Part shown: positions 24,756 to 34,855 of the stretch, one piece after another
Layout of the letters: each line of letters opens with the position of its first letter
How positions within the stretch are numbered: position 1 is the first letter of the stretch
Source: an uncultured Pseudomonadota bacterium
Lineage (GTDB): Bacteria > Pseudomonadota > Gammaproteobacteria > Methylococcales > Methylomonadaceae
Direction of reading: 5' to 3'
Assembly (NCBI GenBank): GCA_903875455.1
Contig: CAIQWF010000165.1
Coordinates: 1-46,896, forward strand
DNA length: 46,896 nt
The notes under the pieces: model-generated
Database searches by the model: none
What the model saw: only the letters and a program-made list of their open reading frames with translations
What the model was told of the DNA's origin: nothing
Made by a program: the position numbers and the translations under genes

Positions 24756-24774
24756 CTGCGACAATTTGTCGCGC
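24756..24774. promoter_or_regulatory. Palindromic 19-bp motif, copy 1 (pmo upstream region)
   Basis: The core GCGACAATTTGTCGC (24758-24772) is a perfect 7+1+7 palindrome. The surrounding 19 bases match 18 of 19 with a second site at 31516-31534. It lies about 160 bp upstream of the pmoC -35 box and about 90 bp upstream of the divergent small membrane gene. It looks like a dimeric transcription-factor operator; the factor is unknown. Confidence 0.6.
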
Positions 24775-25082: not shown

Positions 25083-25835
25083 ATGGCTGCTACAACTGAG
25101 TCAGTCAAAGCTGATGCTGCGGAAGCACCGCTTTTAAACAAAACTAACCTGATTGCAGGTTTTATGTTGTATCTTGTGTTTTATTCATTCATTCGTTGGT
25201 ACGAAGGTGTTTATGGTTGGTCTGCAGGTTTGGACTCATTTGCTCCAGAGTTTGAAACATACTGGATGAACATGTTATACATCGAAATGGTTATTGAAGT
25301 ATTGTTGTTCTCAGCAATCAATGGCTATTTGTGGAAAACTCGTGATCGTAAAGTTATGTCTATCACTCCACGTGAAGAATTAAGAAGACATTTTACACAC
25401 TGGACATGGTTGGTAATGTACGGTTGGGCAATTTACTGGGGTGCTTCTTACTTTACAGAGCAAGATGGTACATGGCATCAAACAATCGTTCGCGATACTG
25501 ACTTTACACCAAGTCACATTATCGAGTTCTATTTGTCATACCCAATCTATATCATCACTGGTACTGCTTCTTTCATGTATGCAAAAACAAGATTGCCTAC
25601 ATATCAAGAAGGTTTGCACTTGATGTATTTGGTTGCTGTTGTTGGACCATTTATGATTCTGCCAAACGTTGGTTTAAACGAGTGGGGACACACATTCTGG
25701 TTTATGGAAGAGTTGTTCGTTGCTCCTTTACACTACGGTTTCGTATTCTTCGGTTGGGCTGCACTGGCTGTTTTAGGTGTAGTAAACACAGAAGTTATGT
25801 CAATCACAAAATTATTGAAAAAAGATTTGGCTTAA
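25083..25835 (+). CDS. pmoC: Particulate methane monooxygenase subunit C
   Basis: This 250-residue inner-membrane protein has about six hydrophobic segments and is the first gene of pmoCAB. The copper ligands of Methylococcus capsulatus PmoC all have equivalents with a constant offset of 28. D128, H132 and H145 lie in DGTWH and TPSH (the CuC site), and N199, H203 and H217 lie in NEWGH and APLHYG (the CuD site). pMMO oxidises methane to methanol in intracytoplasmic membranes. A strong AGGAGG precedes ATG 25083. The gene is transcribed from the promoter at 24931 with a structured leader. Confidence 0.98.
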   Translation: MAATTESVKADAAEAPLLNKTNLIAGFMLYLVFYSFIRWYEGVYGWSAGLDSFAPEFETYWMNMLYIEMVIEVLLFSAINGYLWKTRDRKVMSITPREELRRHFTHWTWLVMYGWAIYWGASYFTEQDGTWHQTIVRDTDFTPSHIIEFYLSYPIYIITGTASFMYAKTRLPTYQEGLHLMYLVAVVGPFMILPNVGLNEWGHTFWFMEELFVAPLHYGFVFFGWAALAVLGVVNTEVMSITKLLKKDLA

Positions 25836-25878
25836 TTGCTTAATCGTTTTTTAGTAACAGAAATACTATCTCCTATGA

Positions 25879-25906
25879 CATGTCCTGATTTTATTGTCAG
25901 GACATG
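25879..25906 (+). promoter_or_regulatory. Hairpin in the pmoC-pmoA gap
   Basis: CATGTCCTGA (25879-25888) and TCAGGACATG (25897-25906) form a perfect 10-bp stem with an 8-base loop. No U-tract follows, so it is probably not a full terminator. It may set relative subunit mRNA levels by processing or protecting 3' ends. Confidence 0.7.
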
Positions 25907-25962
25907 CAGTCCGTGAGATGGTAAATAAAAAAATATAATTTTAATTTTTAGGAGGTAAGCTA

Positions 25963-26712
25963 ATGAGCGCATCTCAATCAGCTGTAAGATCACGTGCAGA
26001 AGCGGTTCAAGCTTCTCGTACGTTCGACTGGATGATTCTTTTTGTAGTGTTCACTGCCATTCTTGGTGGCTATCACATTCACTATATGTTAACTGGTGGT
26101 GACTGGGATTTCTGGACTGACTGGAAAGACAGACGTCTGTGGGTAACTGTAGCACCTATCGTGGCAATTACTTTCCCTGCTGCTGCTCAAGCATGTTTGT
26201 GGTATCGTTACCGATTGCCTTTCGGTGCGGTTGTTTCTGTATTAGCTCTGATGTTAGGTGAGTGGATTAACCGTTATATGAACTTCTGGGGATGGACATA
26301 TTTCCCAGTTAACTTCTGTTTCCCTTCTAACCTGATTCCAGGCGCTATCGTTCTTGACGTAGTATTAATGCTGTCAAGCAGCGTAACATTGACTGCTGTT
26401 GTTGGTGGTTTGGGATTCGGATTGCTTTTCTATCCAGGTAACTGGCCAATTATTGCTCCATTGCATGTTCCTGTTGAATACAACGGCATGATGATGACTT
26501 TGGCTGACTTGCAAGGTTACCACTATGTACGTACTGGTACTCCAGAGTACATTCGTATGGTTGAAAAAGGTACATTAAGAACTTTCGGTAAAGACGTTGC
26601 TCCTGTATCTGCGTTCTTCTCTGGTTTCGTTTCTATCATTATCTATTTCTTGTGGCACTTCTTCGGTAAATGGTTTTCTAAAACTGATTTTATCGCTGAT
26701 GACGCTTCTTAA
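25963..26712 (+). CDS. pmoA: Particulate methane monooxygenase subunit A
   Basis: The 249-residue integral membrane subunit has several hydrophobic helices and the sequence blocks used as methanotroph markers, such as GGDWDFWTDWKDRR (about 45-58) and FCFPSNLIPGA near residue 123. The overall sequence is that of type Ia gammaproteobacterial PmoA rather than AmoA or alphaproteobacterial PmoA. It lacks the main copper sites but packs against PmoC and PmoB. AGGAGGT precedes ATG 25963. Hairpins lie in the gaps on both sides. Confidence 0.98.
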   Translation: MSASQSAVRSRAEAVQASRTFDWMILFVVFTAILGGYHIHYMLTGGDWDFWTDWKDRRLWVTVAPIVAITFPAAAQACLWYRYRLPFGAVVSVLALMLGEWINRYMNFWGWTYFPVNFCFPSNLIPGAIVLDVVLMLSSSVTLTAVVGGLGFGLLFYPGNWPIIAPLHVPVEYNGMMMTLADLQGYHYVRTGTPEYIRMVEKGTLRTFGKDVAPVSAFFSGFVSIIIYFLWHFFGKWFSKTDFIADDAS

Positions 26713-26744
26713 GAAGAGTTTTGAGACAGTACTAGAATTGAGAC

Positions 26745-26765
26745 CTGGCAATTTTATGTTGCCAG
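26745..26765 (+). promoter_or_regulatory. Hairpin in the pmoA-pmoB gap
   Basis: CTGGCAA (26745-26751) and TTGCCAG (26759-26765) make a perfect 7-bp stem with a 7-base loop, 33 bp after pmoA and 40 bp before pmoB. As in the pmoC-pmoA gap, no U-tract follows. Confidence 0.6.
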
Positions 26766-26805
26766 ATAATCTAAAAATAGATTCTCTAGTAATAGAGGAG
26801 GATAT

Positions 26806-28050
26806 ATGAAAATAATAAAAGACAAAGTTGCTAAATTATCCTTTGTCGCACTGCTGATGTCATTAACGGCAGCGATGTTCTACACTCCAACTGCATCTGC
26901 TCATGGTGAAAAATCGCAAGCTGCATTTATGCGTATGCGTACTATTCACTGGTTTGACTTGAACTGGTCAAAAGATTCAGTAGCAGTTAACGATACAATG
27001 ACAATTTCTGGTAAATTCCACGTTTTCGCGGGCTGGCCAGAGACTGTTGATAAACCAGAAGTTTCTTTCTTGAACATCGGTATTCCAGGTCCTGTATTTA
27101 TCCGTGCCGGATCTTGGATTGGCGGTCAATTAGTTCCACGTTCTGTAACTTTGGAATTAGGCGAAACTTACGAGTTTAAAGTATTGTTGAAAGCACGTCG
27201 TCCAGGTGACTGGCACGTTCATACAATGATGAACGTCCAAGGCGGTGGCCCTATCATTGGTCCAGGTAAATGGGTAACTGTTACTGGTTCAATGGGGACT
27301 TTCGTAAATAACATCACTACTTTGACTGGCGAAACCATTAACTTAGAAACATACAACTTAAGTAATATTTACTTTTGGCATGCTTTCTGGTACGCATTAG
27401 GTTTGGCATGGTTAGCGTTCTGGATTAAACGTCCATTGTTCGTTCCACGTCATATCGCTATTAGCAGTGGTAAAGCAGATACATTGATTTCAGCAACTGA
27501 TAAAAAAGTTGGTCTAGGTTTCGCTGTAGCTACTATGGCTATCGTTGCTGCTTCTATGGGCACAACAAACGAAAAATATCCTGTAACTACACCATTACAA
27601 GCTGGTTTGTTACGTGGTATGAAGCCAATTGAAATGCCAGAAGCAACAGTGTCTGTAAAAGTTGATGATGCTTCTTACCGTGTACCTGGTCGTGCTATGC
27701 AAATGACACTGACTGTTACAAACAACGGTGATTCAGCAATTCGTTTAGGCGAATTCAACACTGCAGGTGTCCGTTTCTTAGATCCAGCTGTATTACAAGA
27801 CGAAACTGCTTACCCAGACGACTTGTTGGCTGAAGAAGGCTTAACTGTAAATGACAATAGCCCATTGGCTCCAGGTGAGACAAGAACTATCGAAGTTACA
27901 GCTTCTGACGCTGCATGGGAAGTTTACCGTTTAGCTGACTTGATCTACGATCCAGACAGCCGTTTCGCTGGCTTGCTGTTCTTCTTCGATGCAGAAGGCA
28001 ACCGTCAAATGGTTATGGTTGACGCTCCATTAATCCCATCTTTCATCTAA
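26806..28050 (+). CDS. pmoB: Particulate methane monooxygenase subunit B
   Basis: The 414-residue subunit has a cleaved signal (about 1-32) so that the mature protein starts with His33, the N-terminal copper ligand. H137 and H139 in GDWHVHTMM complete the CuB site, and H48 and H72 correspond to the bis-His site; the numbering equals that of Methylococcus capsulatus. Two cupredoxin domains (about 33-170 and 265-414) flank two transmembrane helices (about 185-205 and 233-250). It holds the large periplasmic part of pMMO. GAGGAGG precedes ATG 26806, and a palindrome and terminator follow. Confidence 0.98.
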   Translation: MKIIKDKVAKLSFVALLMSLTAAMFYTPTASAHGEKSQAAFMRMRTIHWFDLNWSKDSVAVNDTMTISGKFHVFAGWPETVDKPEVSFLNIGIPGPVFIRAGSWIGGQLVPRSVTLELGETYEFKVLLKARRPGDWHVHTMMNVQGGGPIIGPGKWVTVTGSMGTFVNNITTLTGETINLETYNLSNIYFWHAFWYALGLAWLAFWIKRPLFVPRHIAISSGKADTLISATDKKVGLGFAVATMAIVAASMGTTNEKYPVTTPLQAGLLRGMKPIEMPEATVSVKVDDASYRVPGRAMQMTLTVTNNGDSAIRLGEFNTAGVRFLDPAVLQDETAYPDDLLAEEGLTVNDNSPLAPGETRTIEVTASDAAWEVYRLADLIYDPDSRFAGLLFFFDAEGNRQMVMVDAPLIPSFI

Positions 28051-30564: not shown

Positions 30565-31221
30565 CTAACTTGGTTGTTTAACCAAACGCAAATACGGTTT
30601 CAAGGTTTTAAAACCCTGCGGATATTTCTCACGCGCCTCGGCATCAGAAACAGAAGGCGAAATAATAACATCATCGCCGTATTGCCAATTCGCTGGAGTT
30701 ACCACCTGGTGGCGGTCCGTGAGCTGAATAGCATCGAGTACTCTTAGTATTTCATTGAAGTTGCGCCCTGTACTCATCGGGTAGGTCATCACCATTCTGA
30801 TTTTTTTATCAGGGGCAATGATGAAAACAGATCTTATTGTCGCAAAAGTCTCCACGGATTGTCCTTCAGAATTAACAGTCTCTGCCGGCAGCATGTTGTA
30901 GAGTTTGGCAATAGCCAAATTGGTATCAGCTATGATTGGATAAGTGACTTTATGGCCTTGAGTCTCTTCAATATCCATCGCCCATGAATCATGATGGGAA
31001 ACAGAATCAGTGCTCAAACCGATCAGCTTGCAGTGACGCTCGGTGAATTCCGGTTCCAGTTTTGCCATGCAACCTAACTCGGTGGTACAAACCGGGGTAA
31101 AATCTTTTGGATGAGAAAATAAAATTGCCCACTTATCTCCAATCCAGCGATGAAAACTTATTTTTCCTTTAGAGCTATCGGCAATAAAATCAGGGGCTAT
31201 ATCATTGATACGTAATAACAT
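30565..31221 (-). CDS. 1-Cys (Prx6-type) peroxiredoxin
   Basis: The 218-residue protein has the peroxidatic motif HPKDFTPVCTTELG with Cys near residue 45, the conserved Arg in the segment after TFATIRSVF near residue 131, and the long Prx6-type C-terminal extension (PANWQYGDDVII near residue 176). It would reduce hydrogen or organic peroxides in the cytoplasm. An additional Cys occurs in RHCKLIGL. GGAG precedes the ATG. sodB lies 650 bp away on the other strand, so two oxidative-stress genes flank the same intergenic region. Confidence 0.92.
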   Translation of the reverse strand: MLLRINDIAPDFIADSSKGKISFHRWIGDKWAILFSHPKDFTPVCTTELGCMAKLEPEFTERHCKLIGLSTDSVSHHDSWAMDIEETQGHKVTYPIIADTNLAIAKLYNMLPAETVNSEGQSVETFATIRSVFIIAPDKKIRMVMTYPMSTGRNFNEILRVLDAIQLTDRHQVVTPANWQYGDDVIISPSVSDAEAREKYPQGFKTLKPYLRLVKQPS

Positions 31222-31515: not shown

Positions 31516-31545
31516 CTGCGGCAATTTGTCGCGCGACACTGTGTC
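31516..31545. promoter_or_regulatory. Palindromic 19-bp motif, copy 2, with two overlapping palindromes
   Basis: Bases 31516-31534 match 18 of 19 with the motif at 24756-24774. They run into TGTCGCGCGACA (31527-31538) and GACACTGTGTC (31535-31545), both perfect palindromes. The last one overlaps where the -35 region of the extended -10 box at 31561-31569 would lie, so this looks like an operator cluster for the downstream RNA. Confidence 0.55.
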
Positions 31546-31575
31546 ACATTTTCTTGTGCCTGCTAAAATCTTATG

Positions 31576-31666
31576 ATTATGACGACTCTTGAATGCGATC
31601 CAGCTTTCTAAGCGGAGCGGAGTTATATATCCTTCTCTAAACGGCTAGTTAATAGCCGTTTTTTTT
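31576..31666 (+). ncRNA. Candidate small RNA upstream of sodB
   Basis: TGCTAAAAT (31561-31569) is an extended -10 box, so transcription could start near 31576 and end at the strong terminator at 31639-31666, giving an RNA of about 90 bases. There is no good -35 box. The only frame inside is ten codons (ATG 31579 to TAA 31611) and would be nearly leaderless. The class of RNA is not recognised. A leader peptide with attenuator ahead of sodB is an alternative reading. Confidence 0.45.
31639..31666 (+). terminator. Rho-independent terminator upstream of sodB
   Basis: AAACGGCTA (31639-31647) and TAGCCGTTT (31653-31661) form a perfect 9-bp stem with loop GTTAA, followed by a run of eight T (31659-31666). 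No protein gene lies upstream on this strand for over 3 kb. Confidence 0.88.
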
Positions 31667-31874: not shown

Positions 31875-32456
31875 ATGGCTTTTGAATTACCCGCTTTACC
31901 TTACGCAAAAGATGCTTTAGCGCCTCATATTTCTGCTGAAACTTTGGATTTTCACTACGGCAAACATCATCAAACTTATGTAACGAACTTGAACAATTTG
32001 GTACCCGGCACTGAATTTGAGGGGTTATCTTTGGAAGAAATCGTCCTGAAATCATCAGGCGGTGTTTTTAACAATGCGGCACAAGTCTGGAATCATACTT
32101 TTTACTGGAACAGCTTGTCTCCAAATGGTGGCGGCGAACCGACCGGCGCATTAGCTGCGGCGATTAACGCTGCTTTTGGTTCATTTGATGGCTTTAAAGA
32201 GGCATTTACCAAATGTGCAGTGACCACTTTCGGTTCTGGCTGGGCGTGGCTGGTTAAAAATGCAGATGGCAGTTTGGCATTAGTGAGCACCAGCAATGCC
32301 GGTTGCCCTTTAACTGCTGGACAAAAACCGCTGTTGACCTGCGATGTGTGGGAACACGCTTATTACATTGATTACCGCAATGCCCGTCCTACTTATTTGA
32401 ATGCTTTCTGGGCGTTGGTAAACTGGGAATTTGCAGCCAGCAACTACGCAGCGTAA
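31875..32456 (+). CDS. sodB: Iron superoxide dismutase SodB
   Basis: The 193-residue protein has the four metal ligands of Fe/Mn-SOD: His in LDFHYGKHH near residue 27, His in VWNHTFYW near residue 74, and Asp and His in DVWEHAYY near residues 157-161. The sequence around the active site ([21 protein letters not shown]) is of the FeSOD type. It converts superoxide to oxygen and peroxide in the cytoplasm. GGAG precedes ATG 31875, and a terminator follows. Confidence 0.96.
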
Positions 32457-32632: not shown

Positions 32633-34855
32633 ATGACAGCGAAACCTTCAATTGCAGGCCTGATGAGCCGTGATTTCATCAACGAGTTTTGGGGCGGGCT
32701 CGCTTCTATGCTCGTTGCTTTACCGTCAGCTATCGCCTTTGGGGTATTGGTATTTTCAGCGATTTCGCCGCAGATGGTGGGCGAAGGAGCATTTGTCGGG
32801 ATGATGGGAGCTGCGGCGCTAGGATTATCAGCACCGCTATTTGGTCGCACCCCTGCTTTAATTTCTACTCCCTGTGCACCCGCAGCGGCTGTTTTATCCG
32901 GGCTGGCGTTAGAACTTTCCTCACATGGCATAGAAGTAGGACGAATTCCTGGGTTACTGGCGTTGACAGCCTTATTGGCCGCATTTTTGCAAATATTGTA
33001 CGGTTTGTTAAAAGGCGGGCGATTGATTAAATATATCCCTTTTCCGGTAGTTAGCGGCTATTTGTCTGGGGTTGGTCTGATTATCGCCATCGGACAGCTT
33101 CCCAAGCTACTAGGATTGCCTAAAGGCACTACGCTTGGGCATGGTTTAATGACCCCTGATTTGTGGCAATGGCCGGGGATTATCGTAGGCATCATCACCA
33201 TTACCGTGATGATTACTGCGCCACGCTTCACTAAAAAAATTCCGGCGGCCATTTTGGGGCTATTTTCGGGAATTGTCAGTTATTTTATTTTAAGCTTATT
33301 TGTGCCCTCCCTGTTGAGTCTACATGGCAATTCTCTGGTGATAGGCGAGGTTAGGGCTAGTGCGCCATTTTTTGAAACAGTGGCAGGGCGCTTTAAAGGT
33401 TTGTTGGATATTCGGATGACGGATTTAGACTTGGTTGCTCATTCCGCGCTGGCTTTATCGGCCTTGCTATCGATTGATACTTTGAAAACCTGCGTAGTGC
33501 TGGAAGCGCTTACTAAAAACCGCCATGACTCAAATCAGGAATTGTTAGGACAAGGAATTGCTAATCTGGCATCGTTTTTTGCAGGGGGAATGCCGGGTGC
33601 TGGAGCTATGGGGCCATCGTTAGTCAATGTCACCAGTGGCGGACGCAAAACTCAATCCGGTGTGACTGAAGGTGGTTTGGTGGTTTTGGCAATTTTAGTT
33701 TTAGCGCCGCTGATTGCCTGGGTACCGATTGGCGCATTAGCCGGTATTTTGTTAGTCGTGGCGTTTCGGATGTTCGACTGGCATTCTTTTCAGTTGGTGA
33801 AACATCCTGAAACCCGGTTTGATTTTGCGGTGATTGTTGCTGTGGTTATCGTTGCTGAAACGATTGGCCTTATTCAGGCATCCGCTACCGGTATTGGTTT
33901 GGCGATTCTGTTATTTATTCGGGACCAAATTCGGATTTCAGTGCTGCGGCGGCGTGCTACTCTGAAAGAAACCTCTTCTAAAACTTACCGTTTGGAAGAA
34001 GAACTGCGCATTTTACAGGAGCATGGCGATGCCGCCGCCGTTTATGAGCTACAAGGTAATCTGTTTTTTGGCACTACAGATTATTTGTTTACCATGCTGG
34101 AAAATGATTTAAATGAACGTAAATGGCTGTTATTTGATATGCGGCGGGTGCAGTCCCTCGATTATACCGCTACGCATTTGTTTAGTCTGATGAAAGACCG
34201 GGTTGGAGTACGCAGTGGAGAGTTATTATTTAGTGGTATGCCATCGAGCTTGCCGGGTGGGCAGGATTTCCAGCAATACATGCAGCAAGTAGGATTAATC
34301 AAGGAAAATGGCGGAGGGATTCGGATTTTTGAAACCCGTGATGAAGCATTGGAGTGGATGGAAAATAAAATTTTGCAAGAAGCAGGCTGGGTTGCTGGGC
34401 AAGAACAACAGGCTTTAGACCTGAAACAGATTGAATTATTAAGGGAAACTGACGACTACACCATTACTGCCTTACGTCGCTGTATCCATGAGCGCAGCGT
34501 AAAAGGCGGAGAAAAAATATTTTCCTCTGGAGATAGCGGTGATGAAATCTTCTTGATTCGGCGCGGCATCATTCAAATCTTTTTGCCGCTAAAAGGCGGT
34601 AAACGCCATCATTTAGCGACTTTTTGTCCTGGCGATTACTTTGGGGAAATGGCGTTTCTTGATCAGCATCACCGTTCTGCCGATGCGGTTGCCAAAACTG
34701 ATTGCGATTTGTATATCCTTTCCAGAAAAGAGTTTAATGAGCAAGTGTATGTTGACAGTGTGTTAGGTGTGCGGATTTTTGCCCGGATCGCCCGAGCTAT
34801 TTCGCTGCGCTTGCGGCAAACCGATGTTGAACTTTCGGCTCTTGAAGATCGTTAA
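32633..34855 (+). CDS. SulP anion transporter fused to STAS and cyclic-nucleotide-binding domains
   Basis: The 740-residue protein has three parts. A SulP (SLC26) membrane domain spans about 12-430, with FWGGLASMLVALPSAIAFG near the start and AGAMGPSLVNV near residue 323. A STAS domain spans about 450-580, including YELQGNLFFGTTDYLF. A C-terminal cNMP-binding domain spans about 618-725, with the phosphate-binding cassette FGEMAFLDQHHRSADAVA, whose Gly, Glu and Arg are present. SulP proteins move sulfate, bicarbonate or other anions; the substrate is not visible here. The fused sensor suggests transport gated by cAMP or a similar ligand. The mutarotase gene follows 12 bp later. Confidence 0.93.
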   Translation: MTAKPSIAGLMSRDFINEFWGGLASMLVALPSAIAFGVLVFSAISPQMVGEGAFVGMMGAAALGLSAPLFGRTPALISTPCAPAAAVLSGLALELSSHGIEVGRIPGLLALTALLAAFLQILYGLLKGGRLIKYIPFPVVSGYLSGVGLIIAIGQLPKLLGLPKGTTLGHGLMTPDLWQWPGIIVGIITITVMITAPRFTKKIPAAILGLFSGIVSYFILSLFVPSLLSLHGNSLVIGEVRASAPFFETVAGRFKGLLDIRMTDLDLVAHSALALSALLSIDTLKTCVVLEALTKNRHDSNQELLGQGIANLASFFAGGMPGAGAMGPSLVNVTSGGRKTQSGVTEGGLVVLAILVLAPLIAWVPIGALAGILLVVAFRMFDWHSFQLVKHPETRFDFAVIVAVVIVAETIGLIQASATGIGLAILLFIRDQIRISVLRRRATLKETSSKTYRLEEELRILQEHGDAAAVYELQGNLFFGTTDYLFTMLENDLNERKWLLFDMRRVQSLDYTATHLFSLMKDRVGVRSGELLFSGMPSSLPGGQDFQQYMQQVGLIKENGGGIRIFETRDEALEWMENKILQEAGWVAGQEQQALDLKQIELLRETDDYTITALRRCIHERSVKGGEKIFSSGDSGDEIFLIRRGIIQIFLPLKGGKRHHLATFCPGDYFGEMAFLDQHHRSADAVAKTDCDLYILSRKEFNEQVYVDSVLGVRIFARIARAISLRLRQTDVELSALEDR

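Follow-up and report, generated by a model that had tools for sequence, protein, structure and literature searches.

PcrZ of Rhodobacter sphaeroides is an sRNA under the control of PrrA and FnrL (PMC8307010, PMC4263372), FnrS of E. coli is FNR-dependent (PMC4263372), and CcsR1-4 of Rhodobacter, described together with the related 'cuckoo' RNAs, are processed from the ccaF1 3' UTR under the control of a stress sigma factor (PMC8307010, PMC10253847). In Methylomonas sp. DH-1, analysis of the RegB/RegA regulon left the intermediary between RegA and its indirect targets tbdr and tonB unknown (PMC13274454). The unannotated sRNAs listed by a survey of type II methanotrophs are EcpR1 and ar45 only, and our literature search, most subscription journals being outside its scope, retrieved no report of post-transcriptional control or of an sRNA for methane monooxygenase. 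The particulate form of this enzyme (pMMO) is the main biological methane-oxidising enzyme.

The DNA analyzed here (the window, 46,896 nucleotides) is that of a gammaproteobacterial methanotroph and carries pmoC, pmoA and pmoB, as well as a predicted sRNA unit flanked by genes for a peroxiredoxin and an Fe-SOD (Table 1). Like PcrZ, this RNA would be governed by a RegA-class redox regulator and is predicted to pair with, and damp, mRNAs of the main energy conversion of its host. No sequence relation to PcrZ was seen; unlike the methanotroph RNA, PcrZ is not multicopy with a common linker, belongs to another lineage and acts on photosynthesis-gene targets. The RNA resembles CcsR1-4 and the 'cuckoo' RNAs, whose C-rich motif is CCUCCUCCC, in having several homologous copies and C-rich motifs, but each methanotroph copy comes with a promoter, a RegA-type box and a terminator of its own, and there is no Rfam match. 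An oxygen/redox regulator that drives an sRNA is likewise the common element with FnrS, a repressor of many mRNAs, whereas the FnrS regulator FNR is not a two-component system and no sequence or structure match in Rfam connects FnrS with the RNA studied here. For the paired palindromes of the methanotroph operator, we found no counterpart described for PcrZ in PMC8307010 or PMC4263372. The DH-1 regulon involves the same methanotroph family and the same regulator as here; PMC13274454 mentions no sRNA, and the direct target feo lacks the present box. None of the Rfam covariance models reached its gathering score on the window and relaxed thresholds yielded nothing credible, the best weak match being MicF (19.6 bits versus a gathering score of 79). 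The large family, absent from Rfam at gathering thresholds, appears to be unreported, with prior mention elsewhere being possible.

Table 1. Predicted and annotated features of the window discussed in the text
Feature	Position	Strand	Remarks
pmoC-pmoA-pmoB operon (particulate methane monooxygenase)	25083-28050	+	Pfam AmoC, AMO, Monooxygenase_B
pmoA start region TTAATTTTTAGGAGGTAAGC	25941-25960	+	perfect antisense target of sRNA G000:C17:14390-14481
pmoA	25963-26712	+	Pfam AMO
predicted target at pmoB, spanning Shine-Dalgarno and start codon, UAGAGGAGGAUAUAUGA	26793-26809	+	17 contiguous pairs with the linker
pmoB	26806-28050	+	PF04744, 641 bits
1-Cys peroxiredoxin	30565-31221	leftward	upstream neighbour of the sRNA unit
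distal RegA/PrrA-type box TGCGGCAATTTGTCGCG	31517-31533	.	13/14 to TGYGRCANNNTGYCRCA
proximal RegA/PrrA-type box CGCGACACTGTGTCACA	31532-31548	.	13/14; edge common to distal box
promoter	31549-31577	+	weak -35 TTTTCT 31549-31554, 17-bp spacer, -10 TATGAT 31572-31577; inferred from homologue alignment
small RNA, ~84 nt	31583-31666	+	start inferred at 31583-31585; model R1 match 31579-31666, E 4.9e-7 (151 genomes searched)
stem-loop 1	31584-31624	+	GACUCU 31584-31589 pairs with GGAGUU 31619-31624; two-sided changes at 6/6 pairs in family
linker UUAUAUAUCCUUCUCUA	31623-31639	+	predicted pmoB-pairing region; 17 contiguous pairs
intrinsic terminator AAACGGCUA-loop-UAGCCGUUU plus U tract	31639-31666	+	9-bp stem, U8; covariation in family
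Fe-SOD (sodB)	31875-32456	rightward	begins 208 nt downstream of terminator

The sRNA unit and its family

A covariance model (R1) was built from a 20-sequence alignment of 90 positions that comprised the RNA only, the operator being left out. Of 151 genomes from the methanotroph family, 133 gave matches, commonly with more than one copy each, as did few genomes outside this family, which, as far as searched, suggests a multicopy sRNA family specific to gammaproteobacterial methanotrophs. Besides the window copy, the R1 search of the same genome returned C17:14390-14481, C17:13754-13819 and C141:32149-32240. When 61 related genomes were searched at the DNA level, the unit was located in other genera, with several copies in some. 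Tandem arrays of complete units occur, such as the four copies in G006. No match to the unit was found in the plasmid collection searched. The sRNA is also present in G005, a family genome of 100% completeness that gave no PmoC match, which reflects either an assembly gap or another target.

Among 80 distinct sequences, two-sided changes were found at 12 of the 13 base pairs and in both helices, amounting to 89 two-sided-change cells versus 23 in shuffles and at most 8 in slid controls. The linker, AUAUCCUUCU, is the most conserved unpaired part in the same set (92-99% per column, a range that holds for every position of its core A-U-A-U-C-C-U-U-C-U). The fold of the window RNA taken by itself is unremarkable (z -1.4), and the sRNA is convincing because of the comparative evidence rather than its single-sequence fold. 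The homologue comparison found both the stem covariation and the conserved RNA body outside the terminator and establishes, at the level of sequence, a conserved RNA family in which two stems covary, the C-rich linker hardly varies and the operator keeps a fixed distance. The stand-alone, operator-controlled small RNA proposed in the preliminary description is supported by the covarying stems, the fixed distance of the operator and the independence of neighbour genes.

The terminator recognized in that description holds, including compensatory changes in its 9-bp stem among homologues. As stated there, it does not belong to a protein gene: the peroxiredoxin gene is opposite in direction and Fe-SOD starts further on. 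The extended -10 box described at 31561-31569 is indeed present in the sequence, but it is not the conserved promoter, for which the homologue alignment gives TATGAT; this position is occupied by, e.g., TAAGAT, TAATAT or TATTAT in homologues, and the aligned -35 hexamer abuts the palindrome, with the -10 element 17 bp further on. Promoter-like matches as such are not in excess in the region (7 versus 6.4 in shuffles). The aligned -10 position would set the RNA start near 31583-31585, shortening the RNA from the 90 bases originally given to about 84 nt. A short ORF, MTTLECDPAF, was rejected as part of the RNA, as its ATG at 31580 precedes the presumed start and is not conserved. Overall, these elements point to a free-standing sRNA with its own promoter and Rho-independent terminator.

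The location 208 nt upstream of Fe-SOD, along with SOD genes near two other homologues, might indicate that the unit is a sodB leader or attenuator, or part of a peroxide/superoxide response, without a free sRNA. We rejected the leader on genomic context across 72 loci and regard this whole explanation as highly improbable: Fe-SOD adjoins 3 of the 72 sRNA loci and peroxiredoxin 1 (the window only), the U8 terminator stands before sodB, and complete units form tandem arrays elsewhere. The link to oxidative stress implied by the mention of the two neighbours is likewise unsupported.

Two side observations were also made. Downstream of sodB, the window (32633-34855) encodes a protein in which a SulP-type sulfate permease is joined to STAS and cyclic-nucleotide-binding domains. 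At L071 4473-5304 (G000:C141), a further box-driven sRNA-like unit stands immediately before an ORF that has a HEAGHA motif, and similar terminator-then-ORF layouts occur in L042, L044 and L054; such units may represent either an attenuator or a distinct branch.

Operator boxes and RegA as candidate regulator

The palindrome cluster noted at the outset was confirmed; it consists of two inverted repeats of 17 bp each, TGCGGCA-ATT-TGTCGCG and CGCGACA-CTG-TGTCACA, which overlap and extend from 31517 to 31548. The 32-bp palindrome pattern occurs in 1-7 copies in 36 of the 61 related genomes, compared with 0 for the reversed control pattern. Although R1 excludes the box, the box ended 30 (or 29) nt before the R1 start in 55 of 56 matches. 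The distal palindrome is missing in about one third of homologues, in which the proximal one keeps its place; the distal box thus seems dispensable. A loose pattern (CACATT, gap 20-34, AACTCTTRARATG) scanned against 84,980 species genomes gave two clean groups, one of 88 matches with box scores of 12-14/14 and a span of 52 or 51, the other of 52 matches with box scores of at most 10 and scattered spans. Among the carriers that bear a name are Methylotuvimicrobium buryatense 5G, Methylobacter tundripaludum, Crenothrix polyspora and Methylovulum psychrotolerans. A further RegA-type box, TGCGACAATTTGTCGCG (13/14), is located at 24757-24773, ~310 bp upstream of pmoC; a conserved box at this site was rejected, since 13/14 was reached only in this genome and G015 among 30 pmoC loci.

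The RegR consensus GNGRCRTTNNGNCGC and the PrrA site have been published (quoted in PMC5506826). The window boxes resemble GNGRCRTTNNGNCGC with few positions differing, and the homologous boxes of L006 and L044 (GCGACATTTTGTCGC) fit it at every position. Nearly all of the 61 genomes encode one regulator that fits the ActR/PrrA/RegA model far more closely than the rest do; in the genome of the window, regA and regB are adjacent (L065 5112-5654 and 5657-7039), and the RegA protein, with the HTH GNISAAARALNMHRRTLQRKLDKRPV, scores 190 bits, which is below the NCBIfam curated cut-off of 250. Based on these similarities and on the distribution described below, RegA probably binds the palindromes, and the weak -35 element beside the box suggests that it would activate rather than repress.

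A reading that keeps the sRNA with its pmo targets but places a different dimeric regulator (CRP/FNR- or GntR-like) on the palindromes, with a signal other than the RegBA redox state, appears rather unlikely. The pattern TGYGRCA-N3-TGYCRCA could suit such regulators, and several promoters where a RegA box might be looked for came out negative. The feo promoter of Methylomonas DH-1, bound by RegA in ChIP (PMC13274454), is the sole ChIP-proven RegA target in the methanotroph family; at 29 feoA promoters of relatives, the best scores were 8-11/14, equal to background, so that the feo operon failed as independent proof of the RegA box. No box was found upstream of regB in the window's own genome or in G026, and a search for RegA-class regulators in the drafts G008 (98% complete) and G006 (77%) found none, yet box-driven sRNAs are present in both, which reflects either assembly gaps or another regulator. 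Beyond the agreement with the published RegR consensus, however, boxes of 12-14/14 precede regB by 20-240 bp in eight genomes of several families (0 in 94.7 kb of background), a box-driven sRNA is divergent from regBA in two other families (G039, G051, G054, G040), and the f8 genomes without RegA are also without boxes, all of which favors RegA. In two other Methylococcales families (L066-L069), an sRNA with a CCUCC loop was seen to share its upstream region with divergent regBA.

Predicted pairing with pmoB and pmoA

The linker UUAUAUAUCCUUCUCUA can pair with UAGAGGAGGAUAUAUGA, located 5 kb away in the window, through 17 contiguous nucleotides (15 Watson-Crick and 2 G-U pairs), a helix equalled by 0 of 883 other start regions and 0 of 3000 shuffles. 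Cofolding of the window sRNA gained -17.4 with pmoB versus -7.4 with pmoA and -8.9 with pmoC, while sodB and prx were dismissed as targets at ranks 34 and 32 of 68 start regions. In the genome of the window, GAGRAGGATATATR occurs only at pmoB and, antisense, in two sRNAs. Across the 61 genomes, the GAGG form of this site is that of pmoB, the exception being the leader of a different gene in G030 and G077, whereas terminator-bearing sRNAs contain the GAGA form; of seven GAGA-form sites inspected in other genomes, six had a 13/14 box (G068 being without). When contiguous helices were ranked for the family, pmoB was within the best 5% of start regions for 30 of 41 sRNAs, and the pmoB of the same genome paired better than foreign pmoB in 25 of 25 cases. 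About one quarter of the sRNAs tested showed no pmoB enrichment at 0.05, and for these other targets are likely. With bulge-tolerant duplex energies, pmoB was not exceptional for most family sRNAs; since this ranking failed to single out pmoB, our pmoB proposal is built on contiguous complementarity, uniqueness and conservation. A target rule demanding the exact linker complement near ATG (AGAAGGATAT...ATG) was abandoned: its matches were for the most part sRNA genes and scattered loci, and pmoB escaped it owing to a G-U within the pairing.

A paralogue (C17:14390-14481) carries a loop that is perfectly antisense to 20 nt of the pmoA start region. At up to 3 mismatches, this 20-mer has two sites only in the 3.49-Mb genome, namely pmoA and the sRNA gene, and the predicted interaction (-37.5 kcal/mol) ranks first of 68 start regions, the next reaching -25.4. 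The 12-mer TTACCTCCTAAA, with NNNT after it, was found across 121 family genomes in pmoA (antisense), in box-linked sRNAs and in a few unlinked places. The pmoA start region has the clade variants AATTTTTAGGAGG and AATCCTTTAGGAGG, which the sRNA loops track (AAAAATT or AAAAGTT; AAAGGGTT); pmoA was within the best 0.1% of start regions for 11 of 41 sRNAs, and the same-genome pmoA paired better than foreign pmoA in 13 of 14 cases. This matching between the sRNAs and the variants of pmo may reflect a small number of independent events. Taken together, a conserved and accessible sRNA region is complementary to start regions encoded elsewhere, as would be expected of a trans-acting RNA.

The CCUCC loops and the CCUUCU linker would fit many ribosome-binding sites, and several family members with CCUCC loops are not pmo-specific, features that, along with the quarter of sRNAs devoid of pmoB enrichment, would suit a general anti-Shine-Dalgarno sRNA for which pmo genes are only a few of many targets. 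We nevertheless consider this unlikely, as the pairing extends well past the core to a helix that no other start region equals, the paralogue has a unique 20-nt match to pmoA, and the 12- and 14-mers match almost solely pmo and box-linked sRNAs in 61-121 genomes. The pmoB leader itself contains a conserved hairpin, CUCUA-GUAA-UAGAG (26783-26800), that partly hides the Shine-Dalgarno sequence and resembles the sRNA linker, making an RNA switch possible. Its conservation and position would also allow the sRNA to activate pmoB by invading the hairpin; this is improbable, given that the predicted duplex spans the whole Shine-Dalgarno sequence and the start codon and would exclude ribosomes, and that the paralogue likewise covers the start region of pmoA.

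A proposed redox-tied brake on methane oxidation

Operator and pairing evidence combined point to redox (RegBA) control of methane monooxygenase rather than to oxidative stress. We consider it likely, judging from comparative genomics, that the units constitute a RegA-controlled trans-acting sRNA family that represses pMMO synthesis. According to this model, RegA of the RegB/RegA redox system would bind the palindromes and activate transcription from the weak -35 element abutting the box; the sRNA would then pair with the pmoCAB mRNA across the Shine-Dalgarno sequence and start codon, and the duplex would block translation, assuming repression rather than activation. Synthesis of pMMO would consequently fall when the redox state activates RegA. 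A more tentative extension, for which we see a somewhat less than even chance, is a riboregulatory circuit dedicated to methane oxidation, in which one redox regulator commands several sibling sRNAs that silence successive pmoCAB cistrons, some (such as the C17 copy) clamping the pmoA and pmoB starts of one mRNA via two separate antisense elements, and in which the partners coevolve across gammaproteobacterial methanotrophs.

The family can be addressed at once in model strains, for instance in the carrier Methylotuvimicrobium buryatense 5G, and, if the model is correct, the sRNA would provide a simple handle for methanotroph engineering. In the RegA regulon of Methylomonas DH-1, it would also be a candidate for the missing intermediary. 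The sRNA probably lets methanotrophs turn methane oxidation down, and such a redox-tied RNA brake would explain how methane oxidation is matched to electron supply.
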